Origin: Nitrospira japonica
GTDB lineage: Bacteria; Nitrospirota; Nitrospiria; Nitrospirales; Nitrospiraceae
Direction: 5' to 3'
Assembly (NCBI RefSeq): GCF_900169565.1
Contig: NZ_LT828648.1
Coordinates: 248,001 to 312,000, forward strand
Length of the DNA stretch: 64,000 bases
Under the pieces are notes generated by a model. It was not told where the DNA came from. It saw only the letters and a list, made by a program, of their open reading frames with translations, and did no database searches. Positions within the stretch are counted from its first letter, which is position 1; each line of letters starts with the position of its first letter. Shown here piece by piece: positions 31,584-52,686 of the stretch. A program made the position numbers and the translations under genes.

Positions 31584-31660
31584 AAGTTCCAAACACTGAC
31601 TGAGATGCAACCTCTTTCATATGCTCACCGTAGGTATTGCCGTCCCCCGGCGAGTGGGAT

Positions 31661-31993: not shown

Positions 31994-32087
31994 GATCACT
32001 CCTTTCGTGAATGCCGCTATAGCTGAAGCAGTGTGTACGTGCATCCTCCACTTCCATGAACACTCAAGACTGATGAGTAAGACAACC

Positions 32088-32663: not shown

Positions 32664-32830
32664 GAACGCTCCTTCCTCAAAGAGCCGGCACGGTACCGAC
32701 CCGTTAACTGCTATATGGACGGGATACACGTTACTCGAAGTATTTGTGATACGAAACTGTCAAAACTAACAGTCTCGCCATGCTTCTCTCTCATCATCCG
32801 TTGCCTCCGGTCAATCGTCCCTGCCCGTGG

Positions 32831-33955: not shown

Positions 33956-33957
33956 GG

Positions 33958-36738: not shown

Positions 36739-36745
36739 AGAAATC

Positions 36746-37801
36746 CTATTTGGAGGTTGCCGCGGCCTCGGGCGCTGTCGGCGCAGCGGGTTGAGCGCTG
36801 CCGGACTTCGGCAAGTTGACCACATCCTTCTGAAGCCAGGCCGGCCAGACGGCTGCGTCACTCAGCTTCACGTAGCCGACGCCTCGGATACCTGTTTTGA
36901 TACGCTCGATGTACTGTTCGACGAGGTCCGGGGGCACCTGAATCTTGACGCGGAACATCAGTTTTTCGCGCTCGCTCTTGGTCTCGACCTGCTTCGGCGT
37001 GAACTGGGCCTCCGGCGAGACGAAGCTAACGTACGCGATCGCCGATCTGGTCGGGTTGTAGTCCACCGTGATGCGCGCCTCCGCACCAACCTTGAGCGCC
37101 GCAGCATGTTCTGCCGGGAGGAAAAGTTCCATGTAGACATTGCTCAGGTCCACGATCGTCAGCGCCTTGCCGCCGGGGCCGAGAACCTCGCCCGGCTCGA
37201 CCAGGCGATACAGCACGCGGCCGGCCGTCGGCGAGACGAGCGTCGCATCCCTGATGCGAGATTCGGTCTTGGCCACACTCGCCTGAGTCACTTCGATCTG
37301 CGCCTGGGCCGCTGCTACCCCCGCCTGCGCCGCCGAGAGTGTCGCCGTCGCCGAGTCCAGAGCGGCCTTGCTGACGTCGTATTCGCGCTGTGACACGGCG
37401 TCCCCTTCGAGCAACTTGCGATCGCGCCTTTCCTCGATCTGCGCGAGCCGGATCCGGGCTTGTTGCTGGGCAACGGACGACTTGGCGGCTGCGAGCTCGT
37501 GTTTCGCGCCGGCCATGCTGGCCTTTTCCTTCGCCAGCTCCGCTTCGAGCGTTACCGTGTCGAGTTGAACCAGCACGTCACCCTGTTTGACGAGATCGCC
37601 CTCCTTTACCAGGATCTTCTTGACCCTAAGCGGTTCCTTGGCGGATGCGTCCACCAGCGTGGCCTCGATCCGACCGTTGCCCGACACGATTCCCGGAGGG
37701 AGCGCGGACTGCATCGACTTCCAGTGTTGATAGCCCAGCACTCCCCCACCCGCCACGACGATCGCGACGACGATCCACTTCTTGGAAAGTTTGACGGCCA
37801 T
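36746..37801 (-). CDS. yhiI: HlyD-family membrane fusion protein (YhiI-like)
   Basis: A 351-residue periplasmic adaptor. It has an N-terminal membrane anchor (WIVVAIVVAGGGVLGY), a biotinyl-lipoyl half-motif VKKILVKEGDLVKQGDVLVQLD, and a coiled-coil hairpin (about 85-190, rich in Ala, Gln, Glu). The second lipoyl half is LVSPTAGRVLYRLVEPGEVLGPGG, followed by a beta-barrel domain and an Ala/Pro tail. It would link the RbbA/YhhJ inner-membrane unit to an outer-membrane channel encoded elsewhere. The ATG at 37801 is the first gene of the trio. Confidence 0.88.
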   Translation of the reverse strand: MAVKLSKKWIVVAIVVAGGGVLGYQHWKSMQSALPPGIVSGNGRIEATLVDASAKEPLRVKKILVKEGDLVKQGDVLVQLDTVTLEAELAKEKASMAGAKHELAAAKSSVAQQQARIRLAQIEERRDRKLLEGDAVSQREYDVSKAALDSATATLSAAQAGVAAAQAQIEVTQASVAKTESRIRDATLVSPTAGRVLYRLVEPGEVLGPGGKALTIVDLSNVYMELFLPAEHAAALKVGAEARITVDYNPTRSAIAYVSFVSPEAQFTPKQVETKSEREKLMFRVKIQVPPDLVEQYIERIKTGIRGVGYVKLSDAAVWPAWLQKDVVNLPKSGSAQPAAPTAPEAAATSK

Positions 37802-37915
37802 GGTGCTCTACCTCACGTGTTTCACTTTGCTATCGGTTCGAAAGCATTTCTTGGGAAACGTGTGGAAGGATGGACAAGAACCCCAGCAAAAGCAAGTGGG
37901 GGAAGAGCGAAGGAA

Positions 37916-38251
37916 TTACCTGGACATTGTGAGGGGTCGAGCCGGTTGGACGTGATTCACGCAGCGGGATTGCCGACGCCGATCAAGCCACCACGCGACG
38001 ACAGGAAGGAGGACAAAAGACCCAGGCGCCAGCAAGGCCAGGAGGTACGGACAGAGGGCCACGACTCTGCGAAGCTCGAGACCCAGCCGACGCCGCTCCT
38101 CGGTCGCCCACCAGGCCCCATTGCGTTGTTTCATCAGCAACCCCAATAAGCCCCATATCCCAGCCATCTCTGTGCGGATACGTTCCCGTTCGCGCTGCAA
38201 AGGATCTGTGAAGCCGGTGCAGAATGTCCTCAGCCAGTCATGCCGAATCAT
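37916..38251 (-). CDS. Small protein with one or two membrane segments
   Basis: A 111-residue protein. The N-terminal half is Arg-rich and amphipathic (CTGFTDPLQRERERIRTEMA); a hydrophobic stretch (about 68-88, YLLALLAPGSFVLLPVVAWWL) follows, and the tail is basic. The ATG at 38251 comes two bases after the TAG of the PilZ-like gene, so it is translationally coupled to it. No family recognised. Confidence 0.5.
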   Translation of the reverse strand: MIRHDWLRTFCTGFTDPLQRERERIRTEMAGIWGLLGLLMKQRNGAWWATEERRRLGLELRRVVALCPYLLALLAPGSFVLLPVVAWWLDRRRQSRCVNHVQPARPLTMSR

Positions 38252-38253
38252 GT

Positions 38254-38625
38254 CTACCGTGCCGCTTTCTGGCGCTCGAGCGCCTGCTGAACGTACAGCT
38301 CCAAGTCACACGTGGAGACCTTGACCAAGGAGAGGAGGTCCACCACAAAGTGCCCATCCGCCACCTCCGATACTCGAGACTCCGCGATTCCCGCCGCCTC
38401 CTCTGCCCGTGGAAGAAAGATCAACAGCGTCAGTGACATTCCTTCACGTACCGGTTGTGTGCCTGTGAGGTCGAGTCGCCCCAACCCACCGCCTATGAGC
38501 ACTGCGTCGCCCATGACCAAGGTGCCGCGATCGATCCCGGAATACATCACCCGCAACTCGTCCGCATTCGACAGCCCCGATACGGGGTGTTCCGAGACAT
38601 TTACCCATACGTTCTCGTTTTCCAT
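38254..38625 (-). CDS. PilZ-like domain protein
   Basis: A 123-residue protein whose segments MYSGIDRGTLVMGDAVLIGG, LDLTGTQPVREGMSLTLLIFLP and VADGHFVVDLLSL follow the beta-barrel pattern of PilZ domains. The canonical c-di-GMP motif (RxxxR ... DxSxxG) is not clear: no leading Arg cluster is seen and LDLTGTQP stands where DxSxxG would be. It may therefore be a degenerate, non-binding PilZ or an unrelated barrel. The ribosome site GGAGGAAAG precedes the ATG at 38625. It is coupled to the small membrane-protein gene downstream. Confidence 0.5.
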   Translation of the reverse strand: MENENVWVNVSEHPVSGLSNADELRVMYSGIDRGTLVMGDAVLIGGGLGRLDLTGTQPVREGMSLTLLIFLPRAEEAAGIAESRVSEVADGHFVVDLLSLVKVSTCDLELYVQQALERQKAAR

Positions 38626-38639
38626 CTTTCCTCCTTGTT

Positions 38640-38858
38640 TCAGATCTGTTCGGCCGTTCCACAATCCATCGATTGCCTGATCCAAGCGTATCGTGGCCTC
38701 CCGTCAGTCGATATACCGAAAAGGCATGGAGTCTTCCCCCTCGGATGAGTGGTGATCTTGAGTCGCATTTCGCGCACGTTTTCAGAAAGTAGCCCGAGGA
38801 ACTGCCCGAACAGGCTTCCGGTCAGGCCCCCTCCTTCGAGATACCCACTCCGAGGCAT
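38640..38858 (-). CDS. Possible small protein upstream of the PilZ-like gene
   Basis: A 72-codon frame from ATG 38858 (GGAG about nine bases upstream), MPRSGYLEGGGLTGSLFGQF and on. It ends 14 bases before the PilZ-like ATG, which would fit an operon of three. Composition is acceptable (LLSENVREMRLKITTHPRG), but there is no family match and it may be chance. Confidence 0.3.
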   Translation of the reverse strand: MPRSGYLEGGGLTGSLFGQFLGLLSENVREMRLKITTHPRGKTPCLFGISTDGRPRYAWIRQSMDCGTAEQI

Positions 38859-38924
38859 GTGCAAACTCTCCGCATTCGCTATGCTTCACCTGTCAGGCAT
38901 TGATCAACCAAGGAGGGTTCAAAG

Positions 38925-39098
38925 GTGCATACTCAGAGCAACGGACTACGTGAGAGACTGGCAACCCTTTCAAGCAAGGAACTGATGGATGCGTTAATGG
39001 CAGCGGACATGCCAATGGGAGGGACGAACGCACAGCGGATTGACCGACTCCTCTCGATTGCTTCCCCGGTGGATGTGTCGCAGTTTCTCCCTTCATGA
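38925..39098 (+). CDS. Small SAP-motif-like protein, GTG start
   Basis: A 57-residue frame with an excellent ribosome site (AAGGAGGG, about seven bases before GTG 38925). The segment LSSKELMDALMAADMPMGGT followed by NAQRIDRLLSIA fits the SAP helix-extended-loop-helix pattern (hydrophobic-x2-Leu-x5-Leu, Gly-Thr, then RLL), a short nucleic-acid-binding motif. It is probably a real small gene missed by length filters. It lies 82 bases before another unknown gene on the same strand. Confidence 0.5.
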   Translation: MHTQSNGLRERLATLSSKELMDALMAADMPMGGTNAQRIDRLLSIASPVDVSQFLPS

Positions 39099-39179
39099 CG
39101 GTGGAAATATCCGGTTATTCCTCGAAAGGTTCGACTTGCACTCACCGACATTTCAAGCGTAGGGTTCTGTCTAGCAACC

Positions 39180-39674
39180 ATGAACCCACCACACGATGAA
39201 GCACAAAAGAACGCTTCCCACATCGTCGTAGCCTATGGGAGGATCTTGGAGGATAGTCCGACCTCCCTTACGATTCTCTTTCGTCCTGAATCAGACTTGC
39301 CGTATCCGAAATCAATAATCAGATCAGCTCTCGAACTACTCTTGCTCACGATAAGGGATGCTGAAACGCGAAAAAGCCTAGAAGCCTGCGATGTCTTACT
39401 AAATCGGTTCCTCCCCCAAGACGAGTACTGTGTGGCCTACCAGCAACGAGCAGGATTGGCGCAGGCGGTTGAACGGTTCAAGCCCGGTGTATCGGTCGAT
39501 ATCACCTTCTTGAAACCACTCGTCACCGAAGGAGCGACAAAGGAAGGTGAAGAGCGACTAGCCCAAATTGTTGAACAGTGGAAACGCGAATGTGATCGGA
39601 CGGTGCTACGACACCAAGAGATCAGAAGGGACGTCGAGCTTGTTCAAAAATCAGGGGAAAAGAGAGGAGAATGA
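39180..39674 (+). CDS. Hypothetical soluble protein
   Basis: A 164-residue protein without signal or membrane segments. It is mostly helical, with a hydrophobic core segment SIIRSALELLLLTIRDAETR and a C-terminal charged helix (EQWKRECDRTVLRHQEIRRD). No recognised domain. The ATG at 39180 lacks a strong ribosome site. It ends 142 bases before the outer attachment repeat, so it is probably the last chromosomal gene before the island. Confidence 0.5.
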   Translation: MNPPHDEAQKNASHIVVAYGRILEDSPTSLTILFRPESDLPYPKSIIRSALELLLLTIRDAETRKSLEACDVLLNRFLPQDEYCVAYQQRAGLAQAVERFKPGVSVDITFLKPLVTEGATKEGEERLAQIVEQWKRECDRTVLRHQEIRRDVELVQKSGEKRGE

Positions 39675-39816
39675 AGCAACGGAGTGGGATCACTTCTTGA
39701 CTGTTCGGATAATGTATCTTCGTAACCGCCTCCCATCTTCCTGCCGTCAATGCCGTTGAACCCAGAGATGAGTTTCGAGGTACTGCTTCAGCTCTTGGTG
39801 GGTCGTGCAAAGGCTT

Positions 39817-39838
39817 TGGTGTCCCCAACGGGATTCGA
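39817..39838. repeat. Outer attachment-site copy (tRNA-Glu 3' end)
   Basis: These 22 bases are identical to the 3' end of the tRNA-Glu gene at 52609-52630, including the encoded CCA, and then diverge. Similarity to the copy at 47247 extends to 39850 with two mismatches over 34 bases. It marks the far end of the island. Confidence 0.8.
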
Positions 39839-39974
39839 GGGCTTTTGCAATGCCTCCCGTCTTTCCTGGAGTATTGTATTTCGAGGTCTTGTGAAGGCAG
39901 CCTAAATCCAAAAGCAGTCTATTTGCGCCGTCGAAACTCAATTGGCGAGGGCTGATCCGATAGAGCTGGACAAG

Positions 39975-41588
39975 TTACTTGACTACCTCGATCTCGCTCG
40001 GCTGCCAGCTCTTGTCGAAAAACGATTCCGCCGGAAAGTAGAGACGCAGGATCACGAACCAGCCCTTATCTCGGGTCGTCTGTATCCAATTACCCTCCTT
40101 TGCATCGGCCGGCTTTGAGGGACCGAAATAGACTGTCGTTGAGCCGTCTGAATTTGCCACCGCCGCTGGTGACGGGTACGTCTGACTACCCGCGCGCGGT
40201 GAGCGCTGTGGAGTTTGTAACATGGAGCGGGTTTGATTGTCATACACGGTGAACGACCAGAATCTACCGGCCGGGATGTCTTTCGGCAATGTCACACGGT
40301 ATGTCTTGCCGCCATCAAAGGGATTACCGGTGGCATCCGCGAAGGTCATTAGATACTGGGAACCGGCATTGGTTAACCGCATGATCATGCCCGGTGAGTC
40401 CATCGTGTAGGCGTAATAGAACGCGGTCCGCGAGTCGAGGGTCCGCGCCCCTGTTGCTGGTAAGGGCATGATCCCGTCCTTCGTGACAAGCGGAGGCGGT
40501 GTTTGAAAGTCGAACCCGCCCTGCCACAGCATGTTGGACCACTTCGATCGTGGATAATAGGCCCAACCGGGGTAATCAGCTGCCCGAAAGTTCAGCACCC
40601 GCCCGGCCGCGTTACCAACGGCCGCGGCGTCGGTAAGGATTTTCTTCATTCGCGCGTCCGGCTTGAAGGGCTTGCCCTTGACGATGCCGATGGCTGCGAG
40701 TTGGCCCGAAAGCTCGACGTTGAAAGATGTTGCCGGCTCCATCTGCACCAGCTCATTGACCATCTCGAAGTAGGACAAGTCGTTTGGAGGAATAGTGTTG
40801 AACGATTTCCCACTGGCCTCGACAAACTTCGTTGGCGGGATGGATTGGTTGGCGCGCCCCGGCCTGACTTTACCCTCGAGGATTGCGGCCATGCTCGTGC
40901 CGAAGCCTCCGGGGATATACGGATAGATCTTCAGCGACTTCTTGATCGAGGCGACGGCAGGTTTGGGATTGTTGTTGTCCATGAACGCACGCACAGCGTA
41001 GAGCACATGCATGGTTTTCGAGTGGCCCACGTGGAACCCGCTCTCCGGAAGCGTCCCGTCATACCCTGGCGGCACAATGAGATACTTGCCTCCTTCGCCG
41101 CGATCGGGGCCAGGAAAGCCGATGTCGATGATCCAGCTGAACCACATGTCATTGATCGTGCCGAGCACCGCTGGTGGCGCCTCGATCACCAACGGACCGT
41201 TCGTGAGATCGAGAGCCGCAAGCGTGTAAATCGTGTCGGCATTAGCGGTCAGAAAGAGAGAGTTCGAATCCATTAACTCAGAAAAGATGACAACCGTGTT
41301 GTCTTCGGCTCCGATGCTCTGGAAACCCTTGCGAAGTGCATATGCCGATGCACCCGAGAAACTATTCATGAACGCGTCAAGTGCTCGCACGTAGTCCAAG
41401 TTGTTCTTGACCTTCTCCACGGTGGCATCAGTCGGCGCGCCGTCCCTGAATTCGAGCGCGCCGATGTGGGTCTCGACCCTGTCCGGCGTGGTGACGGACG
41501 TGGGAATGTTTTGCGCCTGAGCGGTCGTGAGGGTCATGGTGCCGGCGAGCACGCCCGCGATGAGATGCGGTTTGCGCCTGCGTATCAT
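39975..41588 (-). CDS. Exported DUF1254/DUF1214 protein
   Basis: A 537-residue secreted protein with a signal peptide (MIRRRKPHLIAGVLAGTMTL... AQA). A DUF1254 domain (about 50-190, ANADTIYTLAALDLTNGPLV, MWFSWIIDIGFPGPDRGEGG) is followed by DUF1214 near the C-terminus (YAYTMDSPGMIMRL, YRVTLPKDIPAGRFWSFTVY, GNWIQTTRDKGWFVILRLYFP). Function of the family is not established; some members are linked to envelope or xenobiotic responses. AGGAGCTGCGTG places the start at ATG 41588 rather than GTG 41591. Same strand as the small membrane protein 114 bases upstream. Confidence 0.85.
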   Translation of the reverse strand: MIRRRKPHLIAGVLAGTMTLTTAQAQNIPTSVTTPDRVETHIGALEFRDGAPTDATVEKVKNNLDYVRALDAFMNSFSGASAYALRKGFQSIGAEDNTVVIFSELMDSNSLFLTANADTIYTLAALDLTNGPLVIEAPPAVLGTINDMWFSWIIDIGFPGPDRGEGGKYLIVPPGYDGTLPESGFHVGHSKTMHVLYAVRAFMDNNNPKPAVASIKKSLKIYPYIPGGFGTSMAAILEGKVRPGRANQSIPPTKFVEASGKSFNTIPPNDLSYFEMVNELVQMEPATSFNVELSGQLAAIGIVKGKPFKPDARMKKILTDAAAVGNAAGRVLNFRAADYPGWAYYPRSKWSNMLWQGGFDFQTPPPLVTKDGIMPLPATGARTLDSRTAFYYAYTMDSPGMIMRLTNAGSQYLMTFADATGNPFDGGKTYRVTLPKDIPAGRFWSFTVYDNQTRSMLQTPQRSPRAGSQTYPSPAAVANSDGSTTVYFGPSKPADAKEGNWIQTTRDKGWFVILRLYFPAESFFDKSWQPSEIEVVK

Positions 41589-41702
41589 CACGCAGCTCCT
41601 TTCTGTTCTCTCCGTTCGTTAATTAGACGTGCTTCACACTTCGAAACTGTCCAGATTCCCTCTTCCCTCGCAGTTTCGACTTCGGCCGCAGTGTTGAAGT
41701 CA

Positions 41703-42245
41703 TCAAAGTGGGCGCGCTGCCCTTCGAATGCCGGCGAACGCATAACAGAGTCCGATCACATAGACGACGATGCTGAGACCCTGCGCTGCAAGCCATGCGT
41801 TCTTTCCCGCTTGTACCGGCTGAAAATAGAAATTCGGCCAAAAATAATTACAGATGACAAAGCCTGCAGCGGCGCTCACGAGTGTAGCGATAAGGCCATA
41901 GGCGCAGAGCATAGGCGCAGTACTCTCGTGGCTGGAAATAGTCATTGACTCGCCCTGTCTGGTTATTGCCAGATAAACCAATCCAATGGCGATCATGCCG
42001 AGGCCCCCAGTCTTGAGCGTCAACTCGGCCAGAATCGCCGGACAGCCCCACCACAACGTCACATTTTCTAGAAAATCTGCCCCAACATTTCCGGTTTGAG
42101 CCCCGGCCATGTAGTGTAGGATCGGGACGAAGCCGGTCAGGAATCCAGTGATGAACAGGCCGAGCCCCCAACGAATAAATCTCCAGCTTAGTTCACTGGG
42201 GGTAACGGCGGCTTTGCTGCCCATAGCTATCGCCGCGCTTCTCAT
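41703..42245 (-). CDS. Four-helix integral membrane protein
   Basis: A 180-residue protein with four hydrophobic segments (about 25-45, 70-90, 108-130, 145-170), ending FAGIRRAARPL. A conserved-looking HYMAGA follows the first helix. Size and topology resemble small four-helix membrane enzymes such as styrene-oxide isomerase, but I do not see enough to assign that. The ribosome site AGGAGGGAATGC favours the ATG at 42245 over 42251. Divergent from the AraC regulator, which probably controls it and the DUF1254 gene. Confidence 0.6.
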   Translation of the reverse strand: MRSAAIAMGSKAAVTPSELSWRFIRWGLGLFITGFLTGFVPILHYMAGAQTGNVGADFLENVTLWWGCPAILAELTLKTGGLGMIAIGLVYLAITRQGESMTISSHESTAPMLCAYGLIATLVSAAAGFVICNYFWPNFYFQPVQAGKNAWLAAQGLSIVVYVIGLCYAFAGIRRAARPL

Positions 42246-42382
42246 ATGCATTCCCTCCTATCGCGAGAGTAACCACAGGACCGACGTCAGCAAGGGATAG
42301 TATTCTTTGCCATGCAAAGGTATCAAGGCGCCCTACGCATTAATTGCCATTTCACGACATTGTTTGTTAGGGTTCGCTCCCT

Positions 42383-43426
42383 ATGAACGGCGGCCATCGG
42401 ATGTGCGAGTTGGGGAGCTTCGTTCCCTATCTGCTGTCAAAGGGGGAACAGCCAGGAAAAGTACTCAAGAAGGTGGGCTTCCCCACCCATTTACTTCTTG
42501 ATCCGGATGCATGGGTCCCTCGGGAACTATTTCTTACCCTCGTCAATGCTCTGTCATCCACGACCGGCGATCCACACTGCGGCATCCACGTTGGTGAAAT
42601 GGAGTCTTTCGTACAGTTTGATGCCTTTGGAACGGCCATTCTCAATGCTCCGACGCTGCGGACAGCGATTAACGTGGCTTGTCGCCGAATCACACTTATT
42701 CAGACGGGTACTGAGATTCGCTTGAGCGAATATCGCCGCACAGCACGCCTGAGTTACTCGCTTCTCGGACGGACAGGGGAAAATCCGGCGCAGTACTTCC
42801 AAGGCGTCCTTGTGTTTTTTCAAAACATTCTCGCTCTGACCGGCCAACCGGCCGTCGTCGATGTCGCATTCGATCACGTACCGTGCCGAAAATCAGATGA
42901 GCTGGAACGGGTGTTTGGACCGCGGTTGGTCTTCCGCGCGGGAGAGAACGCTGTAGTGTTCGATCGCGGGCTCCTCGACTTACCACTGCAATTCAGCAAA
43001 ACTGCGATTCAGATCCTTCCTGATAGGCCGGTTGAGGAAGAAGTCGTTCGAGCGGTGCTCAGCAACATGTCGGATCAGTTGGTCTACGAAACACCCAGTC
43101 TCGAAACTACGGCCGGCGTTTTAGGCCTTCATCCCCGTACGCTCGAACGACGTCTTACTGGATGGGGCATCCCATTTGAATCTCTGCTCGATGACTTCCG
43201 CCGAAACCGCAGTCTTCAACTCATCCACGAGGGGACACACACCCTGACCGACATTGCTTTCTTAGTCGGGTACTCAGATGCGGCGCATTTCACACGGGCA
43301 TTCCGACGATGGACCGGCAGGCCGCCTCGAGACTATGTCAGGGGTCTACGGCTGAGTCGTGAGTTTAGTACGCCTAGACCACCCCAACGACATTCTTCCC
43401 ATGTTGTCATTGCCGCTGACGGTTAG
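42383..43426 (+). CDS. AraC-family transcriptional regulator
   Basis: A 347-residue regulator. The N-terminal ~200 residues are of the OruR/ArgR-like ligand-binding type (GDPHCGIHVGEMESFVQFDAFGTAIL, and SLLGRTGENPAQYFQGVLVFFQN). The C-terminal double helix-turn-helix (about 230-325) has TTAGVLGLHPRTLERRLTGWG and LTDIAFLVGYSDAAHFTRAF, followed by RRWTGRPPRDYV. The divergent arrangement with the membrane-protein gene across 137 bases suggests it activates that operon. ATG at 42383, alternative ATG at 42401. Confidence 0.88.
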   Translation: MNGGHRMCELGSFVPYLLSKGEQPGKVLKKVGFPTHLLLDPDAWVPRELFLTLVNALSSTTGDPHCGIHVGEMESFVQFDAFGTAILNAPTLRTAINVACRRITLIQTGTEIRLSEYRRTARLSYSLLGRTGENPAQYFQGVLVFFQNILALTGQPAVVDVAFDHVPCRKSDELERVFGPRLVFRAGENAVVFDRGLLDLPLQFSKTAIQILPDRPVEEEVVRAVLSNMSDQLVYETPSLETTAGVLGLHPRTLERRLTGWGIPFESLLDDFRRNRSLQLIHEGTHTLTDIAFLVGYSDAAHFTRAFRRWTGRPPRDYVRGLRLSREFSTPRPPQRHSSHVVIAADG

Positions 43427-43512
43427 TTCGACGAAGTAACCGGATCACGACGCCCAATCTAGTGATTCTATGGATGCATGAGGCAACTCATCGCGGCACG
43501 CGCCCAGATAAG

Positions 43513-43557
43513 GAGCATTACCGGTAACGGTAAGGGCAATCAATGTTGCCTGAGAAC
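43513..43557 (+). repeat. Direct repeat, copy A
   Basis: A 45-base sequence containing ACCGGTAACG and ending CTGAGAAC. It matches copy B at 43729-43773 at roughly three quarters of positions. The whole gap 43427-43799 holds no supported gene. Confidence 0.5.
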
Positions 43558-43728
43558 AGGCGAATAACAGGCTGCGATCGGGCGCCCACGAGTCGGGGGA
43601 AAGGTCAGAAAACAGCTGACCCCAAAAACGAAGAAATGTGCTGAGGTACAAACGCGTCGCCCGCGAGGTGTACACCCCCAGCCCGCGGTTACCGAAGTTT
43701 CCAAGCCTGGAATACAAACCACGACAGG

Positions 43729-43773
43729 GAGCGTCACCGGTAACGAAAAGGCGATTCAATGCAGTCTGAGAAC
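43729..43773 (+). repeat. Direct repeat, copy B
   Basis: Partner of copy A, 216 bases away in the same orientation, just before the cytochrome gene's stop codon. Both copies keep ACCGGTAACG and CTGAGAAC. On the minus strand both fall in one reading frame (VTGDAP and VTGNAP), so they may be remains of a repeated coding sequence. Confidence 0.5.
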
Positions 43774-43799
43774 CGACAAGAAACAGACCTGGGATGACG

Positions 43800-45842
43800 C
43801 TATTGACAGCCTGGACGATCGCTATCGTTTACCCAAAACGTGTACTTCTCGCAATCGTCGGCTGCCGGAGGACGCGCCGCTGGAATCTGCTTCGACACTG
43901 GGGGTAAGGTTCGTAGATAGGCAATGATGGCGCGGAGGTCGACCTCGTCCCAATTCGACGCAAAATCCCAGATCATGCCCTGCCAGTGAAGCGTGCGGCC
44001 GTCGGGGGTCACTCCGCTGCGGATGGCACGAGCGATCTCCCGATCGCTCCACGCACCAATTCCGGTCGTGCGGTCCGAGGTGATGTTCCTGGTCCATAAG
44101 GTACCAAAGGCTTTCCAGCTAATCTTGAGCCCGCCGTAGCCTTCCGGACGGTGGCAGAATGCGCACGAGGCGACGGTGAAGAGCAGGCGCCCGCGCGTGA
44201 CCAATGTGGCCTGTTCTGGAGACGGAAGCGCGTTGACGTTGGGAGTTGGAATACGATCCAAAACCTGACGAGCGACCCGTTCAGGGGGCAGGAAACCGAC
44301 AGCGGGAAGGTGATACACCAACCAGCCGAGCAGGAAGCTTGCAAGAATGACGAAGACGATTCCGGCTCTCTTCCACCCGTGTCCAAGCTCTCGTGGCCCG
44401 TCACGCATTTCAGCGAAGCCGAATGCCACGATGCCCAGGATCAGGATGACCCATTGGGTGTTGATGAGAGCGGCTTGTGGCCAACCACGCGCAGCGACGT
44501 CTCCAGTTTGTCCGAAGTTGCCTTCAACGAATGTCAGGACGGCTGGTGGAAACGCGGGCCATCGAGGATCCTTAAGTTTCATGCCGAACGTTTCTAAGAC
44601 GCCGTAATGCAGCGGAGGGGGGATCCGGCTCGTGACTGGCGGCAGTGATTTCAAAAAACTGGCAATCGCGTTGGCATCCTCATCGGGCAAGGCGTGCAGA
44701 AAATTCCACGGCATGTCGAGGACATTCAGAATCCGATCTGGGGTATGGCCGTTTCTCAAAGCCTCAATAATTTGCCCGTTGCTCCATGCACCCAGTCCGG
44801 TCGTGCGATCGCCGGTCAGGTTCCGGCTGACCAGATGCCCATGTGCACCCACGTCAACCCGCATCCCACCAGCTAAATAAAAGTCATCGCTCCTATAGAT
44901 GCCAGTCCGGTTGATCTGTGTGTGGCACAGGCCGCACATCTGAGCATGAACCAAGTACGCCCCACGTTTGATCGGATCGGCGGACTGTCCGGGCCCATCG
45001 AGAACTCCCCCCGGTTCCCAGGGGGCCGTACGTGCTAGCGAAAGGACATAGTTGACGACGTCCCAACGCTGCGTCGGGCTTAACACGGTTTCAAATGCGG
45101 GCATAGGACTCGGCGCCAGTCCTATGGTAATCCGCAACCAAATTTGCTCCGGATTAAGACCTCCACGAAATGTCCACGGCGCGGAGAGGTCGCGCGACAT
45201 GATCGTATGGCCGTTCGTATCTTTCATCGGAATCAGGCCCCGTCCTTGGGGGCCATGGCAGACGCTACATCCAGCTCCGACAAAGTATGCCTTCCCACGT
45301 TCCAGGCTGGCCGCATCGCCTGGGACCTGAGGCGAGATCTGAAGCGGTTGAGGCGGGGTCTTCTGAAAGACCGGAGACAGCGTCTTGATGTGAGCCACGA
45401 CTTCGCGGATCTCTTGTTCCGTTAACAGATCTCGCCAGTACGGCATGGCACTTGCGGTCAGCCCGTTCGTCACGACGCGAACCAAATCCTCGTCGGTTGG
45501 CGGTTGTCCAGGCGGCGTCGACTTGTACTTGAATTGGCCTTGAGTGAAATCGCGTGGGTGGGGAATTAGCGAAGGGGCGGCCGGTCCGTTCCCTCGACCG
45601 TCCGGCCCATGACAGACCGCGCATCGCTGGGCGTAGATCCTTGGGCCGGGTGGCGTGTCAGGGGGTAGGCCGGTGCCTGGTGGCCAAACAAGGTCAGCAT
45701 AGTGAGCCGGATCCGGTTGCCACAACTCAACGGGATCAGCATAACCGATTCGAGCGTACAGCGAACGCGTGACGTCTAGAAGGAGGAGGAGTCCGAGCGT
45801 GACCAGTACAACACGTTTCCGCGAAAGCGACATCCAGCCCAT
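43800..45842 (-). CDS. Membrane-bound four-haem cytochrome c fusion
   Basis: A 680-residue protein with four CxxCH sites: CAVCH (74-78), CSVCH (192-196), CGLCH (303-307) and CAFCH (560-564). The N-terminal segment VVLVTLGLLLLLDV anchors it. Two more hydrophobic segments (about 462-477 and 493-512) separate haem domains 1-3 from domain 4. Domains 3 and 4 resemble the cytochrome subunits of periplasmic alcohol/sugar dehydrogenases (NLTGDRTTGLGAWSNGQI versus NITSDRTTGIGAWSDREI). It should pass electrons in the periplasm; its donor and acceptor are unknown. The ATG at 45842 (GAGG upstream) is preferred to TTG 45908. Confidence 0.82.
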   Translation of the reverse strand: MGWMSLSRKRVVLVTLGLLLLLDVTRSLYARIGYADPVELWQPDPAHYADLVWPPGTGLPPDTPPGPRIYAQRCAVCHGPDGRGNGPAAPSLIPHPRDFTQGQFKYKSTPPGQPPTDEDLVRVVTNGLTASAMPYWRDLLTEQEIREVVAHIKTLSPVFQKTPPQPLQISPQVPGDAASLERGKAYFVGAGCSVCHGPQGRGLIPMKDTNGHTIMSRDLSAPWTFRGGLNPEQIWLRITIGLAPSPMPAFETVLSPTQRWDVVNYVLSLARTAPWEPGGVLDGPGQSADPIKRGAYLVHAQMCGLCHTQINRTGIYRSDDFYLAGGMRVDVGAHGHLVSRNLTGDRTTGLGAWSNGQIIEALRNGHTPDRILNVLDMPWNFLHALPDEDANAIASFLKSLPPVTSRIPPPLHYGVLETFGMKLKDPRWPAFPPAVLTFVEGNFGQTGDVAARGWPQAALINTQWVILILGIVAFGFAEMRDGPRELGHGWKRAGIVFVILASFLLGWLVYHLPAVGFLPPERVARQVLDRIPTPNVNALPSPEQATLVTRGRLLFTVASCAFCHRPEGYGGLKISWKAFGTLWTRNITSDRTTGIGAWSDREIARAIRSGVTPDGRTLHWQGMIWDFASNWDEVDLRAIIAYLRTLPPVSKQIPAARPPAADDCEKYTFWVNDSDRPGCQ

Positions 45843-46004
45843 GAGCTGAAAACCTCGCAGGAACTTTGTTGCCAATATATTCTGAGCTCGGGAAAGAATC
45901 CCTGTCAACTGGAGCGAACAGGATCAGTGTGCGATGCTTCCGAGGATGCTGGCCCCGTGTGGCTAGACCCCAGATCGGAACCTTCAAATGCCGTGTGTGC
46001 AGGC

Positions 46005-46130
46005 CTATCGTCTAGTGCCGAGGTCGGTTCGTGGGCAACCCTCCACATAAAGTGCATGACGTTTCCGTCCTTGTCGGTACGCGTAAATACAGAGGCGCAA
46101 CTCCTCCGCGAGTTCCTCTGGTGTCGACAT
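46005..46130 (-). CDS. Possible 41-residue protein
   Basis: A short frame, MSTPEELAEELRLCIYAYRQ then GRKRHALYVEGCPRTDLGTR. GGAG sits very close to the ATG. The helix-like first half looks protein-like, but length and spacing make it uncertain. It lies in the gap between the cytochrome and the frameshifted repeat-protein gene. Confidence 0.3.
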   Translation of the reverse strand: MSTPEELAEELRLCIYAYRQGRKRHALYVEGCPRTDLGTRR

Positions 46131-46186
46131 CTCTCCACAAATGAAAGTGGTTGGGGATTTATTTGTCCGGACCATCCACAGGTTGT

Positions 46187-46638
46187 CTATCGACCCCCTT
46201 CAATTCGCCAGCCGTTCCCCAACCGATTTCTAGGGCTGTCAGGGTTGAGAGCATTCCCCGGTCCCAAGGGATTGTTGAGCGAATCGGGAGACAGCGGACT
46301 CCCATACCGGCCAAGCGGATTATTGATCGAATCCGGATCCAGGGTGTTAGTGCTCAACTTCCCACGGTAATGACCTTCCCGGTCGTACAACCGTGGCGCA
46401 TCGGTGGCCAAAGGATTGGTCGCCGAATAGGGACTGATCGGGCTTCCATATGGGCTTAGCTCATTTCTGAGACTGGTCGGGCTGAGCGCGCCGTGAGGGC
46501 CGACGTCGTTGAAGATGGAGCTTGGATCAGTGGATTGTCGCTCAGATCGCCGAGGTATTCAGCGTGAGCAAGAGGCGCCAGCCAGACGAAGGCCACGACG
46601 AGTATCCACATGGGGCACCTCCTGGCGAATGCGGACAT
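46187..46638 (-). pseudogene. Frameshifted secreted NPLG-repeat protein
   Basis: Frame 1 runs from ATG 46638: signal peptide (MWILVVAFVWLAPLAHA) and EYLGDLSDNPL. One base is then missing at about 46528-46529. The next frame continues without a break as DPSSIFNDVGPHGALSPTSL, NPLATDAPRLYDREGHYRGKL, DPDSINNPLGRYGSPLSPDS and NPLGPGNALNPDSPRNRLG to the stop at 46187. Joined, this is a typical small exported protein with (S/D)PDSxxNPxG repeats that starts YLGDLS after the signal. There is no homopolymer or slippery motif at the break, so a real mutation or a sequencing error is more likely than programmed shifting. It begins five bases after the truncated integrase stop. Confidence 0.7.
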
Positions 46639-46642
46639 GATC

Positions 46643-47146
46643 CTACGAGGTTGTCGCTATCACCGTCACTACGAGTTGGCTGACCAGTTTTTCCATCGGC
46701 CACTTCCGCACGTCAACTAAGCCGGCCATCAGGAGTGCGTCCGCCTCCTTCTCGATCTTGCGGTAGTCGTTGCCAAGTAAGGCTTCGTGAGCCTCATCCG
46801 ACATGATGTCCGGGCACGCTACATAGTCGTCCCGCTGTTGGTCAGAGATGGGACCAGCCAGTACCCGGCAGTCCTCAGCATAGTCCAACTCCGACTCCAG
46901 CCAGTGGGAGACGAGGATGTCCCGTTCTTCGTTGGTCATACGGTCCCCATACTTCTTCAGGGTGACAAAGAGTCGCTTGGTCTGAGCCTCGAACTGCGCG
47001 GAGCGTGCGGAGGCCTCGTCCTGATCAGCCGTTCTGAGGCTTCTCCAGACTTCTACACGACCCTTGAAATGCTGTCGAAGCTTTCGAGGAATGTGAACGC
47101 GACGATAGAACGTTGGACGGGAGGAATGCCGAAAAACTGTAGACAT
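46643..47146 (-). pseudogene. Truncated tyrosine recombinase (integrase), N-terminal part
   Basis: A 167-residue frame beginning MSTVFRHSSRPTFYRRVHIP, RKLRQHFKGRVEVWRSL, TADQDEASARSAQFEAQTKR. This is the start of a phage-type integrase (the arm-binding/DUF6538-like segment) found in tRNA-targeted elements. The SAM-like and catalytic domains with the R-H-R-Y residues are missing; the frame ends abruptly in QLVVTVIATTS. The start codon is 101 bases from the attachment repeat at 47247, the usual position for such a gene. It shows that the outer unit was once mobile by site-specific recombination and is now immobile unless helped in trans. Confidence 0.7.
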
Positions 47147-47246
47147 AGAACCCCCCAAACACCGTAGCTCATGTGGATAAGAGCTACAATTCCGTGAGGG
47201 ATCTGCGTGCGAATCGTCTCTGCTGGAGCGTATTTTGTGAGCTTTC

Positions 47247-47265
47247 TGGTGTCCCCAACGGGATT
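47247..47265. repeat. Middle attachment-site copy
   Basis: 19 bases identical to the tRNA-Glu 3' end (52609-52627) and to 39817-39835, in the same orientation. With the outer copy the similarity runs on to 47280. It is the junction between the two island units and lies beside the integrase remnant. Confidence 0.8.
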
Positions 47266-47402
47266 GGAGGGCTTTTGTAACGGTCCTGATCGCTCATGGG
47301 GTATCTCTTTCCGGGGGTTTGTGAATGCGGCATGAACTGCGATTTACGACTTTCCAGAATCCAACATCAGACGACCTAACCTCACAAGAAAACTCGTCCT
47401 CC

Positions 47403-47444
47403 GTGGAGTGAGGGCTACCAATATATTGGCAACCCTCACTCCAC
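47403..47444 (-). terminator. Long hairpin after the SBBP gene
   Basis: Perfect 12-pair arms (47403-47414 and 47433-47444) enclose a second palindrome CCAATATATTGG. On the minus strand a TTTT run follows about 12 bases later. It lies 46 bases beyond the stop of the SBBP-repeat gene and should end its transcript. Confidence 0.6.
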
Positions 47445-47489
47445 TGGCATTCGATTTAGCACCTTACTATCTCTTAAGGCCCACTTCCG

Positions 47490-50279
47490 TCACGGAGCAA
47501 ACGTTCCAACAAACGCCGCAGGACGGTCTGTGGCATCAAAATAGAGCCGGAGCCCCACCGCATTATTATGACTGCCTCCGGGCCCGGAACACTTGGTAGA
47601 GTCGGGGTTGGTTCCGATCCGCGCAGAGACCTTCAGGCTCAGAACATCGGTGGTCCCATTGAAACTCACTGCAGGGAATGCGGGAAAAGCGACACCGACC
47701 GCTGTCGCGAGATTCTCATTTCGCGTCACACCGGTAATACAGCGCGTCAGCCCTTCAACCACTAGAGTCGCGTTCTTGTATACCTCGGCGCGCACATCAA
47801 ATTGAGTGCCTTGATCGTCGCTATTCTTGAGCCCCACCCATACTTGAAGAGCGCTGAGTGTCGTGAGGTTTCCGTTGTTTGGCGTCGGGAGACTGGTAGC
47901 CCATGTACCAATTTCTTTCCAAAGATTGCCCCCATTGAACTTAAGACCGGCTGAATCCCGATACTTGGGAGCCGTCGCGGTAGGGGCAGTGGCATTCACA
48001 AAGAGGGTTGGCGGATTAGCGTTCGGGCCATTCCCGTGCAAGAAATAGTCGGCTATTTCAGGCGGAACTGCTGTAGCAATCTTGGCTACAAAACCGTCTT
48101 CAAGTCCACCGCCATAAGTGGGCTGGAGCGGGGTATGCGTCGTGAAGTCGCTTGCTCGAGTAACACCCGTTACATAGACATTCTCTTGGGAATCTACGGT
48201 AATCCCTAACCCACCACTAACGCCTGTGCTCCCTGTGAAAACCGTGAGGCTCAAGAGGTTGCTTCCGTTGGCATCAAGCTTTGCAACAATGACATGGTTG
48301 AAGGGAGCGCCTAGTGAGCAGCGGTCAATCTGCAACGGATGCGAGAAGTCAGGGATACGACATGAGTTTGTTGGGCCGGTGAGGTAAATGCGATCCGCCG
48401 GATCCAATGCGACGACCGAACCAAAATCGTCACCAACGCCTCCGAATAGAGTGGAGAAAATCAACGCGGTTCCCGTTGAATTGATCTTTGTGACGAAGTA
48501 ATCGTGAGCGGCGAGCGTTGATTGGAATGGAGTACCGGCCAGCGGGAAAGTCGATGATCCGGTGACGCCTGATACGACAGCATTTTCTGCGCTATCCAAT
48601 GCCAGTCCTGCCGCTAATTCATCACTGCTGCCACCTAGATAGGTTGAATAGATTAGCTGTGTGCCTGTAGGGTTTAGCTTTGCTACGATTGCATCAACGA
48701 GGCCTCCAAACGTCGGCTGAAAAGAAGTAAGCGCAGAGATCGAGCTTCCCGCCGTGCCGGGAAAATCACTCGAGAATGATCGACCAGCAACATGGGCATT
48801 TCCTGATGAATCCACACGGACCTTTGCAAGTTCATCTCTATCATTTCCTCCCAAGTATGTGGCATAGACGATTTGTGAGGAAGAGATGTCTAACTTCGCG
48901 AGAAAGCCATCCTGCACACCTCCACCATAAATGGACTGAGCAGAGCTGGGTGTAACACCCGGGAGGCTGGTCGAATTCGTATTTCCCGCGAGATGAACAA
49001 TTGAACCGCTTGCATCGACGGCGATTGACCTCGGGTTCTCTTGACCAGAACTTCCATAGAAAGTCGAATACAATAAAGTTGACGCGTTAGAATCAAATTT
49101 TGAGATGAACGCGTCGGCGCTACCGCCGTGAACAGGTTGAAGCGCCCCAGGTGTGATGGGAAATGTTGATCCACTTGTGCTTCCGGTCAACCATACATTT
49201 CCTGCGCCATCAAGAGCTACAGCAGGCGTATTGTCACTAAAGGTCCCCCCTAAATAGGTCCAAACAAGCAAAGAGCCGCTTGGACTCACTTTCAGAAGAA
49301 ACACGTCAAGCGAACCGTTGTAACTCGAGTCATAAGGTATCCCGACGACAGGTAAAGTAAGTGCGCTAAAGGCATGTCCGACGACCCACGCATCACCAGA
49401 GGAATCGACGGCAACATCGTGGGCATTGTCAATTCCTAATCCTCCTATGAAAGACGAGTAGATTATTACAGGGTCGATCACAATTGTCATGTTTGTGTCA
49501 TACGCTGCGAGTTGGATGCCAACCTCGCTCTCTGAACTGGTGGAAATTATGTAGTTCGCCTCTACAAGTGTCTTATGTCCATCCGCTCCTAGCTGGTACA
49601 CAACCGGTTTCTGCAGCTTTACTTCCCCGAGTGCCGTGGTCAGCAACAGATCTCCGCTCTTGGCCAAGTGAACATTCGAGTTGCCTTTGAACGCCAGCCT
49701 AATCTGAGTCGGATCGGCCCCTGGAGATACAATGAAATCGTATTCAAGCCGACCTTGGTTGCCGTAATAGGCGACGTCGATGCCCGGATACACATCCTTG
49801 TAATGCACCTGTGCGTAGGTCGGAATCTTTGTGTGCCACTTAGTGGGATCGGGGCCAATGAAGTAGTTGACGATCCCGGGTAGTTGGTCCAATCCTTCGA
49901 TCGCTGGATTTGGGTTAACTCCCTCTAATGCCATCCGCACGATGCTCTGCTTGATGGGTGCAGACTCCGTCTTCATGCCGAGATCATCTGTATTCGTCAG
50001 TGGCTCACGTTGCTGAAGCACCATCACAGATTCGGTTGGGGTGAGGAATAAGGTGTAGCCGTTTCCGCGGGAGATGAATTTTACGGAATCATCCGTCTGA
50101 CCCTGATTGGCTTCAAAACTCAAAGGTGCCTTCATAAGAGGGGCAATTACTTGCGCGCTATTCAATGGAGGGTTCATTGACGGCGGATGACTAGCCGCTT
50201 CGCAGATTAGGGGAGTTATCCAACCGATTACCAGGACTGTCACGACCCCAAGTTGCCTTGCTCCCTGCAAGTTTCTCAT
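47490..50279 (-). CDS. Secreted SBBP beta-propeller repeat protein
   Basis: A 929-residue protein. A signal peptide (MRNLQGARQLGVVTVLVIGW... CEAAS) is followed by the N-terminal domain usual for this family (about 45-270, LSFEANQGQTDDSVKFISRG; KDVYPGIDVAYYGNQGRLEY; DPVIIYSSFIGG). About eight SBBP-type repeats (270-760) then follow, each with a YSTYLGG-like strand, D..G...V.G.T.S..FP and G..DAFV.K. The C-terminal part (about 770-929) is a separate beta-rich domain with two cysteines (TRCITG, TKCSGPGG). These propellers are extracellular; binding partners are unknown. AAAGGAG eight bases before ATG 50279 sets the start. It is the largest cargo of the inner island unit. Confidence 0.88.
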   Translation of the reverse strand: MRNLQGARQLGVVTVLVIGWITPLICEAASHPPSMNPPLNSAQVIAPLMKAPLSFEANQGQTDDSVKFISRGNGYTLFLTPTESVMVLQQREPLTNTDDLGMKTESAPIKQSIVRMALEGVNPNPAIEGLDQLPGIVNYFIGPDPTKWHTKIPTYAQVHYKDVYPGIDVAYYGNQGRLEYDFIVSPGADPTQIRLAFKGNSNVHLAKSGDLLLTTALGEVKLQKPVVYQLGADGHKTLVEANYIISTSSESEVGIQLAAYDTNMTIVIDPVIIYSSFIGGLGIDNAHDVAVDSSGDAWVVGHAFSALTLPVVGIPYDSSYNGSLDVFLLKVSPSGSLLVWTYLGGTFSDNTPAVALDGAGNVWLTGSTSGSTFPITPGALQPVHGGSADAFISKFDSNASTLLYSTFYGSSGQENPRSIAVDASGSIVHLAGNTNSTSLPGVTPSSAQSIYGGGVQDGFLAKLDISSSQIVYATYLGGNDRDELAKVRVDSSGNAHVAGRSFSSDFPGTAGSSISALTSFQPTFGGLVDAIVAKLNPTGTQLIYSTYLGGSSDELAAGLALDSAENAVVSGVTGSSTFPLAGTPFQSTLAAHDYFVTKINSTGTALIFSTLFGGVGDDFGSVVALDPADRIYLTGPTNSCRIPDFSHPLQIDRCSLGAPFNHVIVAKLDANGSNLLSLTVFTGSTGVSGGLGITVDSQENVYVTGVTRASDFTTHTPLQPTYGGGLEDGFVAKIATAVPPEIADYFLHGNGPNANPPTLFVNATAPTATAPKYRDSAGLKFNGGNLWKEIGTWATSLPTPNNGNLTTLSALQVWVGLKNSDDQGTQFDVRAEVYKNATLVVEGLTRCITGVTRNENLATAVGVAFPAFPAVSFNGTTDVLSLKVSARIGTNPDSTKCSGPGGSHNNAVGLRLYFDATDRPAAFVGTFAP

Positions 50280-50348
50280 GATTGCTCCTTTGGTTATGTG
50301 CGATCTCTCATAGATCCGCACGTTCTGCAAGGACTAGCTAACATGGTA

Positions 50349-50390
50349 GAAAAAAGGCTGACGCACCCGAGTTCGGGGAGGTCAGCCTTC
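50349..50390 (-). terminator. Rho-independent terminator after the YezD-like gene
   Basis: On the minus strand AAGGCTGAC ... GTCAGCCTT (arms 50381-50389 and 50354-50362) with an inner CCGA/TCGG pairing, directly followed by TTTTTT. This is a textbook intrinsic terminator, separating the small gene from the SBBP gene. Confidence 0.85.
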
Positions 50391-50430
50391 GTGCCGCCAG
50401 TTGGGCTTTGCCAACTACGTGTCGATCTGG

Positions 50431-50622
50431 CTACGCTCTGTGGATTGCCACATGTTGTTGGAACGCCGCTTGCTGATGCGGGTTCAGTTCCTGATTCACC
50501 GACATGCCTTGGACTCCACCTTGTGTGAATCGAATAGTCACCGTGCCGGTATAGCCATGCTCAGAAAGCTTACGGAGCGTTTGCTCGGCCCATTGCATCG
50601 TCGGCTTCACATCTCCCATCAT
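50431..50622 (-). CDS. Small YezD/DUF2292-like protein
   Basis: A 63-residue protein; the core TLRKLSEHGYTGTVTIRFTQ followed by GGVQGMSVNQEL matches the short beta-hairpin pattern of the YezD/DUF2292 group (helix, G-x-V/I-x-I, then Gly-Val-x-x-hydrophobic). GGAGGAGG stands just before ATG 50622. It has its own strong terminator. Such proteins are cytoplasmic and of unknown role, often beside sulfur-metabolism genes; no such genes are seen here. Confidence 0.6.
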   Translation of the reverse strand: MMGDVKPTMQWAEQTLRKLSEHGYTGTVTIRFTQGGVQGMSVNQELNPHQQAAFQQHVAIHRA

Positions 50623-50904
50623 CCTCCTCCATACGAAGCGGAGTGAAAACTCTTACCCGTCGGAATTAGGCTGTAACTCCAGATCTCCAGGTTGAGCACT
50701 GGCTCCACGTATGTCGAATTCAATCTAAGCGTTTCGTGTTTGTCATGGGGAATGACAAAGGGTAACGCGGTTCCTGCAGGATCACGTGCAGGGCCTCAGT
50801 CACTGTATTACGCTAAATCGTGCGTATCATGCGAAGGAATGAGGCTCTATTTCTATGCGCCATCCGGCGTAGGTAGAATAATTTATTTGCTGCAGGCTGT
50901 ATCC

Positions 50905-51111
50905 TCATAAATGGAGGTGCTTTCCATCCTGATGGATGAAGACGATGGCTTCCGCTCGCGTCTGTACCCCTAGGCATTGATAAATTCGCTGCAAGTGCTT
51001 CTGAACTGTCCTCGGACTGATTGACTCCTTTTCGGCAATTTCCTTGTTTGACATGCCGTGAATAAGCCATTTGAGAATCTCTTGTTCCCGCTTGGTTAAA
51101 TCATTACCCAT
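50905..51111 (-). CDS. Stand-alone LuxR-type helix-turn-helix protein
   Basis: A 68-residue protein that is essentially one GerE domain: LTKREQEILKWLIHGMSNKE, IAEKESISPRTVQKHLQRIY, QCLGVQTRAEAIVFI. No receiver or ligand domain is present upstream in frame. It may be a natural small LuxR regulator or the surviving end of a larger gene. Its recognition helix is nearly the same as that of the divergent LuxR gene at 51.3 kb, so both may bind similar sites. ATG at 51111. Confidence 0.75.
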   Translation of the reverse strand: MGNDLTKREQEILKWLIHGMSNKEIAEKESISPRTVQKHLQRIYQCLGVQTRAEAIVFIHQDGKHLHL

Positions 51112-51291
51112 TGGTCAGGCCATTTATCCCTTACAGGAAACCGACTGTACTCGTAAGAGATACCATGGCTCCATACGTCACCAGGCGTAAATACTTATAC
51201 CTATACAATGATGATGCATGCCTATTTGCATTTCCTCGTAGGATTCAGGACAATGCGCGGCACGCTGCTCCAGGCATAACCAAGGGAATGC

Positions 51292-52404
51292 TTGGTGAAT
51301 AGGCTCACCCACCACTCCACAAGGCAGGCGCTAGAGTTTCTTCGCGAGCTATATGTTCTTCGCTCGTGGGACGCCCTTACCACACATATCGTGGAATCGA
51401 TTCCGACACTAATCCCGACTGGTATTTGCTCCTACAACGAAATGAGCTCTCGCCGTCGACACGCCACGTACAAGATGTGGCCCGCAAACCGAACGATGAT
51501 TCCTGATGCTCCGGAGATCTTGGGGCTATATTCTCACCAACATCCTTTAGTAACGCACATGGAGCGCACCAAAGATTTCAGATCTCAAAAAATCACGGAC
51601 TTTCTTTCTCAGCGACAATTCCGCACAACAGAGCTCTTTAACGAGCTATATCGACCGCTACAGATTCCCTACAACATGGCAGCTGGTCTCGCATTGGACC
51701 GCAATTGTCTCGTTGCTCTTGCCCTCAATCGTGATGGAAAAGATTTTACGCCTGACGAGTTGGCTATCCTGGAACTTCTCCGACCACATGTGCGGCAGGC
51801 ATTTGCAAACGCCAGCACCGTCACCAGCATGCTCGAGGAATTATCAGCACTCAATCGAGCGATGGAGGAGATCGATCGTGCGCTTCTCGCCTTTACGGAG
51901 GAAGGACGGATTCAATGGGCTACGAGTCGAACCCGGCGAATGATGAAAGAATACGGATTTCCTTGCCAACGCCCTTCAAAATGGCTACCAAGTCCTCTGC
52001 GCGAATGGACAAAAAGCGCACTCGAGAAATTGAATCGTTCGAGCGACTTCCCGTCTGCTCTCCAACCCCTCATCATCGCCAAAGGTGATCGCAGTCTGAT
52101 CATTCGGTTGGTGCGGGACGGCATCAGATTGCTGCTATTTTTCGATGAGGTTAGCGCAGAGTGCAGCGTGGAAGAACTCGAGTCACTCGGACTAAGTCGT
52201 CGTGAGACAGAGATTTTGTCTTGGGTGGTTCAGGGGAAAACCAATCCCGAGATCGGAGCGATTCTGAGCATCAGCTCCCGGACCGTCCAGAAGCACCTAG
52301 AACACATTTATAACAGGCTAGGGGTAGAGAACCGACATGCGGCAATTATCACGTCAATGGCAGTGCTGCGGCGAGAACGCGCCGGCTGTATCGCAGGCAG
52401 GTGA
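51292..52404 (+). CDS. LuxR-family regulator with N-terminal sensor domain
   Basis: A 370-residue protein. The first ~290 residues are a sensor-like region (GAF/PAS-like in outline: FTPDELAILELLRPHVRQAFANA, then a long linker helix and a second alpha/beta part). The C-terminal GerE domain reads LGLSRRETEILSWVVQGKTN, PEIGAILSISSRTVQKHLEH, IYNRLGVENRHAAIITSM. The start is uncertain: TTG 51292 or GTG 51295, both after AAGGGA. It is divergent from the 68-residue LuxR protein and is the last gene before the tRNA, so it may control the inner unit. Confidence 0.75.
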   Translation: MVNRLTHHSTRQALEFLRELYVLRSWDALTTHIVESIPTLIPTGICSYNEMSSRRRHATYKMWPANRTMIPDAPEILGLYSHQHPLVTHMERTKDFRSQKITDFLSQRQFRTTELFNELYRPLQIPYNMAAGLALDRNCLVALALNRDGKDFTPDELAILELLRPHVRQAFANASTVTSMLEELSALNRAMEEIDRALLAFTEEGRIQWATSRTRRMMKEYGFPCQRPSKWLPSPLREWTKSALEKLNRSSDFPSALQPLIIAKGDRSLIIRLVRDGIRLLLFFDEVSAECSVEELESLGLSRRETEILSWVVQGKTNPEIGAILSISSRTVQKHLEHIYNRLGVENRHAAIITSMAVLRRERAGCIAGR

Positions 52405-52608
52405 CCTTCTCATGAGCAGAATGTTCGCCACACATTGGCGACTCTACCGTACTAAGAGGCACTATTTACTATTGATAATTTCACAACGGGTGCCTATCCG
52501 CTGGGACGAGGACCAAGCTCGAAAATCCCAGAGTAAATACCGTCCAGACAGGTGGTTCTGATTTTGCTGCGGAGAGGAAAAGCTTTTTGCAGACTACGTA
52601 TTTCTACC

Positions 52609-52686
52609 TGGTGTCCCCAACGGGATTCGAACCCGTGTTGCCGGCTTGAAAGGCCGGCGTCCTAGGCCAGGCTAGACGATGGGGAC
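52609..52686 (-). tRNA. tRNA-Glu (anticodon TTC)
   Basis: On the minus strand the gene begins GTCCCCATCGTCTAGCC. Acceptor arms are GTCCCCA/TGGGGAC with discriminator A and encoded CCA. The anticodon arm GCCGGC-CTTTCAA-GCCGGC gives TTC, and the T arm is ACGGG-TTCGAAT-CCCGT. All arms pair fully. Its 3' end is the insertion target of the island; the whole gene is intact because the repeat restores the end on recombination. Confidence 0.97.

Follow-up and report, generated by a model that had tools for sequence, protein, structure and literature searches.

SCCmec-type composite islands make use of a serine recombinase at the 3' end of a gene, a protein-coding target in their case, and form tandem composites with short direct repeats. 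The ssrA islands of Dehalococcoides are also arranged in tandem, bounded by 20-bp repeats with conserved sequence around them, and some are devoid of an integration module (PMC3146451). For integrative mobilizable elements, integration at gene ends can be followed by a decay that keeps the att sites and by the entry of another element at the gene-end site, and tandem integrases can share specificity yet be distantly related; ICE/IME-CIME tandem accretion is reviewed in the same work from Pavlovic 2004 and Bellanger 2011 (PMC5704250).

The island described here, found in a 64,000-nucleotide stretch (the window, positions 248001-312000 of a complete 4.08-Mb genome), is a decayed member of this known tandem-accretion kind in another lineage, and the mechanism is a known one. 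The likeness to SCCmec (serine recombinase, 3' end, short repeats, and tandems) applies to the relatives of the window and not to the window itself, where no serine recombinase remains and the target is not protein-coding. With the Dehalococcoides islands it shares the tandem arrangement at one RNA gene, the ~20-bp copies of the 3' end, the conserved arms, and units without an integration module; however, the target there is tmRNA and the enzyme a CcrB-like serine recombinase, whereas here the target is tRNA-Glu and the sole remnant is a DUF6538 tyrosine integrase (PMC3146451). At tRNA-Glu, the window's relatives also use a large serine recombinase. Integration at a 3' end, decay with retention of the att sites, and re-integration at the same end are common to ICE/IME-CIME accretion (PMC5704250) and to this island, although the ORFs scanned in the latter include no recognised gene for conjugation or mobilization. 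Among the matches listed for the literature on Nitrospira and genomic islands or tRNA-Glu, no title deals with a tRNA-Glu hotspot, although such a paper could exist.

We consider it highly probable (roughly 0.87) that the segment 29.84-52.61 kb is a tandem-accretion island, in which the 3' end of tRNA-Glu(TTC) would have received, on separate occasions, at least three integrative elements, all now decayed. Each element would have entered by site-specific recombination on a core of ~17-22 bp, and each entry would have rebuilt the tRNA, leaving one copy of the core at the far end of the element. Then, decay would have affected all units, one keeping the first quarter of a DUF6538 tyrosine integrase and the others no recognisable recombinase, so that the array would now be probably immobile, carrying accessory genes (export, cytochrome c, and regulators).

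Core repeats at the tRNA-Glu gene

The boundaries of the units are the following:

31439-31467, plus strand: fourth, degenerate att repeat (local alignment score)
39817-39838, plus strand: distal att repeat, same sequence as the tRNA-Glu 3' end, with a right arm conserved to ~39901
47247-47268, plus strand: middle att repeat, 19 bases exact; conserved right arm to ~47331
52609-52686, minus strand: tRNA-Glu (TTC), integration target, whose 3' end is the att core (ARAGORN, Rfam)

The Rfam scan returned nothing besides the tRNA. The 22-mer TGGTGTCCCCAACGGGATTCGA, which is the 3' end of tRNA-Glu(TTC), is present at 39817, 47247, and 52609, always in the same orientation. The copy at 39817 matches in 22 of 22 positions with 0 mismatches, and the copy at 47247 is exact over the first 19, with one mismatch over 22 (position 20). 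As none of these 22-mer repeats is expected by chance (100 dinucleotide shuffles of the window), the two copies reported in the initial annotation, of 22 and 19 exact bases, stand and are not fortuitous. That annotation had named an abundance of the repeats elsewhere in the genome as an argument against its reading; a search of the whole complete genome with up to one mismatch found the core at no site beyond the three, and the sole match with two mismatches is the second tRNA-Glu gene (CTC). Moreover, the right arms of the 39817 and 47247 repeats are 76% alike over 85 bp, in line with the claim that the two distal repeats share more sequence rightward.

The fourth core copy (31439-31467) is followed by a right arm of the same type, TCCCTAACGGAATTGAAGACTTTTGCAAT. 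Its alignment, TCCCTAACGGAATT-GAAGACTTTTGCAAT versus TCCCCAACGGGATTCGAGGGCTTTTGCAAT, reaches a local score of 37; shuffling the whole window 60 times (dinucleotides, both strands searched) gave at most 32. This degenerate repeat is the weakest of the boundaries of the island; with it, at least three units are to be counted, and direct repeats of the tRNA 3' end bound each of them. Site-specific recombination would have made these repeats.

Extent of the island and occupancy in congeners

Two features describe the left side of the island:

28447-29838, no strand: conserved chromosomal flank, ending at the left island edge in the window (blastn against L016/L017)
29839-31438, no strand: 1.6 kb between the flank and the outermost repeat, assigned to none of the units (no match in the tRNA-Glu loci of G005 and G001)

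Genome G005 is the closest congener compared, its flanks having 79-83% nucleotide identity, and its site is empty: the 3' end of tRNA-Glu is followed by 137 bp and then by a match to window position 29838 that continues down to 13099 (blastn). Nothing of window 29.84-52.61 kb is found at the tRNA-Glu place of G005. Because the homologue of the flank ends 137 bp from tRNA-Glu in that genome, the island extends over ~29.84-52.61 kb (22.8 kb), with its left edge 10 kb further out than initially claimed. Therefore, the proposal of a two-unit island of 12.8 kb, with a 7.4-kb outer and a 5.4-kb inner unit, holds for the repeats of both units and fails for the extent, which is of at least three units over 22.8 kb.

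The comparison of this locus among relatives, suggested together with that proposal, shows sites that are empty or differently filled (G005, G001, G002, G130, and G137). G001 is nearly empty, with a match to window 25533-27356 that ends ~250 bp from the tRNA. In G002, ~54 kb occupy the same site, between the end of the matching flank (1746907) and the tRNA (1801244), and stacked arrays are present in other genera. This comparison supports the reading of repeated, site-specific entries at one tRNA.

Gene content and decay of the units

From the outermost unit to the tRNA, the features are as follows (assigned by Pfam, except where another basis is given):

31468-39816, no strand: unit 3, with a Ysc84-domain protein, an ABC-2 permease, a fused ABC ATPase/permease, and an HlyD-type protein
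39839-47246, no strand: unit 2
39975-41591, minus strand: DUF1254/DUF1214 protein, unit 2
41703-42251, minus strand: small membrane protein, unit 2
42383-43426, plus strand: AraC regulator, unit 2
43800-45908, minus strand: large cytochrome c, unit 2
46643-47158, minus strand: remnant of a DUF6538 tyrosine integrase, catalytic domain missing (Pfam and comparison with relatives)
47269-52608, no strand: unit 1
47490-50330, minus strand: SBBP/DUF7948 protein, unit 1
50905-51111, minus strand: LuxR-type regulator, unit 1
51292-52404, plus strand: LuxR-type regulator, unit 1
52482-52577, plus strand: tail of a fatty-acid hydroxylase gene and downstream sequence (86% identity to G003, L019 1994-2089)

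An ICE or IME would have a working integrase plus relaxase or mating-pore genes; here the integrase is truncated, and Pfam, run on the larger ORFs, recognised no gene for a relaxase, a mating pore, conjugation, or mobilization. In unit 3, Pfam found no recombinase among the ORFs, and its portion 36746-39816 has no long match in the congeners. Unit 1 presents neither a recombinase nor a transfer domain in the scanned ORFs, as the initial annotation had stated for its integrase. PADLOC detected no defence system among six ORFs of the window, its two LuxR-protein matches falling on the helix-turn-helix. With both att cores (47247 and 52609), no recombinase, and no recognised transfer gene, unit 1 would correspond to a CIME. 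Since no recombinase is present in either, the origin of units 1 and 3 as integrative elements rests on their ends.

The integrase remnant said to lie in the outer unit beside the middle repeat is indeed there, with an N-terminal DUF6538 domain (Pfam, E 6e-12). It corresponds to the first ~147 of ~530 residues, the relatives being of ~520-570 residues. Among the relatives scanned, the C-terminal Phage_integrase catalytic domain scores above the cut-off in L061 and below it in L057; a search of the whole window found neither this domain nor any other part of the rest of the integrase, and a contig scan with the integrase fragment as query returned no relative.

Relatives of this DUF6538 integrase are often located where tRNA genes end on their 3' side (tRNA-His, tRNA-Leu, and tRNA-Glu). 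In G005, the DNA homology over the 5' region of the integrase ends 43 bp short of tRNA-His, and in G119 it ends 47 bp short of a core; the equivalent distances to the middle repeat in the window are 43 and 48 bp. Also, to the left of the middle repeat the arm is similar to those found on the tRNA-Glu side of elements whose integrase is intact, the score being reached by 0 of 1000 shuffles for G088 and 1 of 1000 for G071. Because of this spacing and this likeness, the best reading of the middle repeat is that it once lay next to the tRNA as the end of an element, in agreement with the initial annotation.

The closest DNA relative of the remnant in the genus (window 46864-47204 versus G005:C1:458142-458481, L063 2142-2481) has 77% nucleotide identity. 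It is also broken by stops and sits at tRNA-His with the same spacing, whereas the window copy is at a tRNA-Glu core, and a change of integrase target between close relatives is possible. To the right of the middle repeat, window 47330-47396 resembles the sequence beside an integrase at G000:C1:1823937 (L071, in the same genome) and is also resembled in G073, G078, and G137; part of an anticodon arm similar to that of tRNA-Thr may lie in this block. Adjoining that second integrase, L071 422-1049 contains two small genes with the look of a toxin-antitoxin pair (on visual inspection, PIN-like and DUF433-like).

Order and mode of insertion

It is plausible that the unit nearest the tRNA would be the youngest. 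The initial annotation had newer units next to the tRNA pushing older ones outward, and this agrees with the outermost repeat being the most decayed and with a G+C content that rises outward (51.2, 56.5, and 58.9%). However, the same anatomy would result if a later element had targeted a distal repeat, since the distal repeats retain the core, and unit 2 could then be younger than unit 1. We regard such outward growth as unlikely, if still worth weighing, because the repeat decay and the G+C gradient run against it and because unit 2, on its tRNA side, ends in a way similar to the ends that abut the tRNA in G088 and G071.

The arm of unit 1 on the tRNA side has conserved counterparts, one next to tRNA-Glu in G003 and one next to a tRNA-less core in G004:C516 (0 of 1000 shuffles each). 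In G003 the fatty-acid hydroxylase gene is intact (L019 1212-2048), 1.7 kb from the tRNA, whereas the window keeps only its last codons and the downstream sequence (52482-52577), so part of unit 1 has been lost on its tRNA side. This conserved 96-bp block was also considered as a transfer origin, a candidate rejected on its identity as the gene tail. With the loss on the tRNA side, the integration in trans that was proposed for the inner unit becomes an unnecessary step. Unit 1 could be an element of the cis-mobilizable type that never had a recombinase and was integrated by the integrase of another element, as its lack of a recombinase and eleven other places of the genome that match the integrase catalytic family would allow. 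We find this rather improbable, because with sequence lost at the tRNA end the loss of its own recombinase is simpler, and nothing in this genome comes near the serine recombinase that relatives use at tRNA-Glu (31% at best). Finally, a single element of 12.8 or 22.8 kb that entered once, its inner repeats arising later by end duplication or chance, would explain why the right arms of the units are of one type but is very improbable given the integrase remnant at tRNA-adjacent-end spacing beside the middle repeat, arms that are just 76% alike, and the stacked arrays of relatives with different recombinases at each core.

The tRNA-Glu(TTC) gene in the family

Judged from these genomes, tRNA-Glu(TTC) is an integration hotspot across the family for two unrelated recombinase families. 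Genome G088 has a single DUF6538 element of 15.2 kb at this gene; across the family, a large serine recombinase is found at it more frequently than DUF6538 integrases. This recombinase has Resolvase, Recombinase, and zinc-ribbon domains, and in many genomes its gene has the 3' end at most ~70 bp from tRNA-Glu or running into it, and the named database records for this enzyme are mostly from Nitrospira, for example, JAMPUU010000020.1 (Nitrospira sp. BO4). In G130, G026, G057, and G087 there is one serine-recombinase unit, of 14.6-30.5 kb, with a 15-17-bp copy of the core as its boundary, whereas G137, G060, and G076 have stacked arrays. The array of G137 consists of a distal core, a 15.2-kb unit, a full DUF6538 integrase at the middle core, a 29.8-kb inner unit, and the tRNA, a plan nearly equal to that of the window but with the outer integrase intact.

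Moreover, G130 and G137 are 99.7% and 99.5% identical to the left and right of the array, yet the first has one unit and the second has two. The identity of their serine recombinase genes is just 78%, and the array has turned over between these near-identical genomes. In Nitrospira-type nitrifiers, tRNA-Glu(TTC) is thus a recurrent hotspot: mixed arrays arise at it from two unrelated recombinase families, and the arrays differ even between near-identical genomes. As these organisms are hard to culture, the gene offers a fixed place to seek newly acquired genes, useful for the study of gene flow.

The synteny of G137 and G130 breaks off precisely where a tRNA-Lys gene ends, 3.7 kb past tRNA-Glu (L066 12327-12521; G137:C20 near 52521), probably another tRNA island. 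Also, partial 3' ends resembling that of tRNA-Glu(CTC) are found 0.8-0.9 kb away from cores of the tRNA-Glu(TTC) type at G103:C144 5867 (L180) and in the joined G098 locus at 18180 (L173), and this second tRNA-Glu gene (CTC) may be an integration target as well.

Repeat arms and the recombinase tail

The right arms of the distal repeats of the window are conserved in several genera and, with many third-position changes, read as a short protein tail of ~28 conserved residues ending in forms of WGIPFRGFVNAA. They show no match to the right arms of the complete DUF6538 elements, of which two were found (G088 and G137), and this leaves doubt about which recombinase carried the units in. An assignment to serine-recombinase elements was rejected, the complete ones having other right arms; at three sites, a serine-recombinase end lies to the left of a window-type arm. 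A likeness of the 39817 left arm to the G137/G130 flank (14 bp, 4 of 1000 shuffles) was discarded, being too weak once the several comparisons made are taken into account.

The serine recombinase of G137, as integrated, has codons supplied by the tRNA at its end, WCPQRDLNPCYCLERAMS, and its presumed own distal arm continues the recombinase frame as PSDKGASLEHPLSFKIELLVEAA (PSDKGALPEHPLRFTIELLVEAA in G130). In the free form of the G137 and G130 elements, the frame would thus run on into a tail of the kind just described. The tail is in another frame in other elements, which makes this reading uncertain. On a rather unlikely reading, the att site would in this lineage lie inside the 3' end of recombinase genes, and integration would swap the last codons, which could act as an integration-dependent switch of the recombinase.
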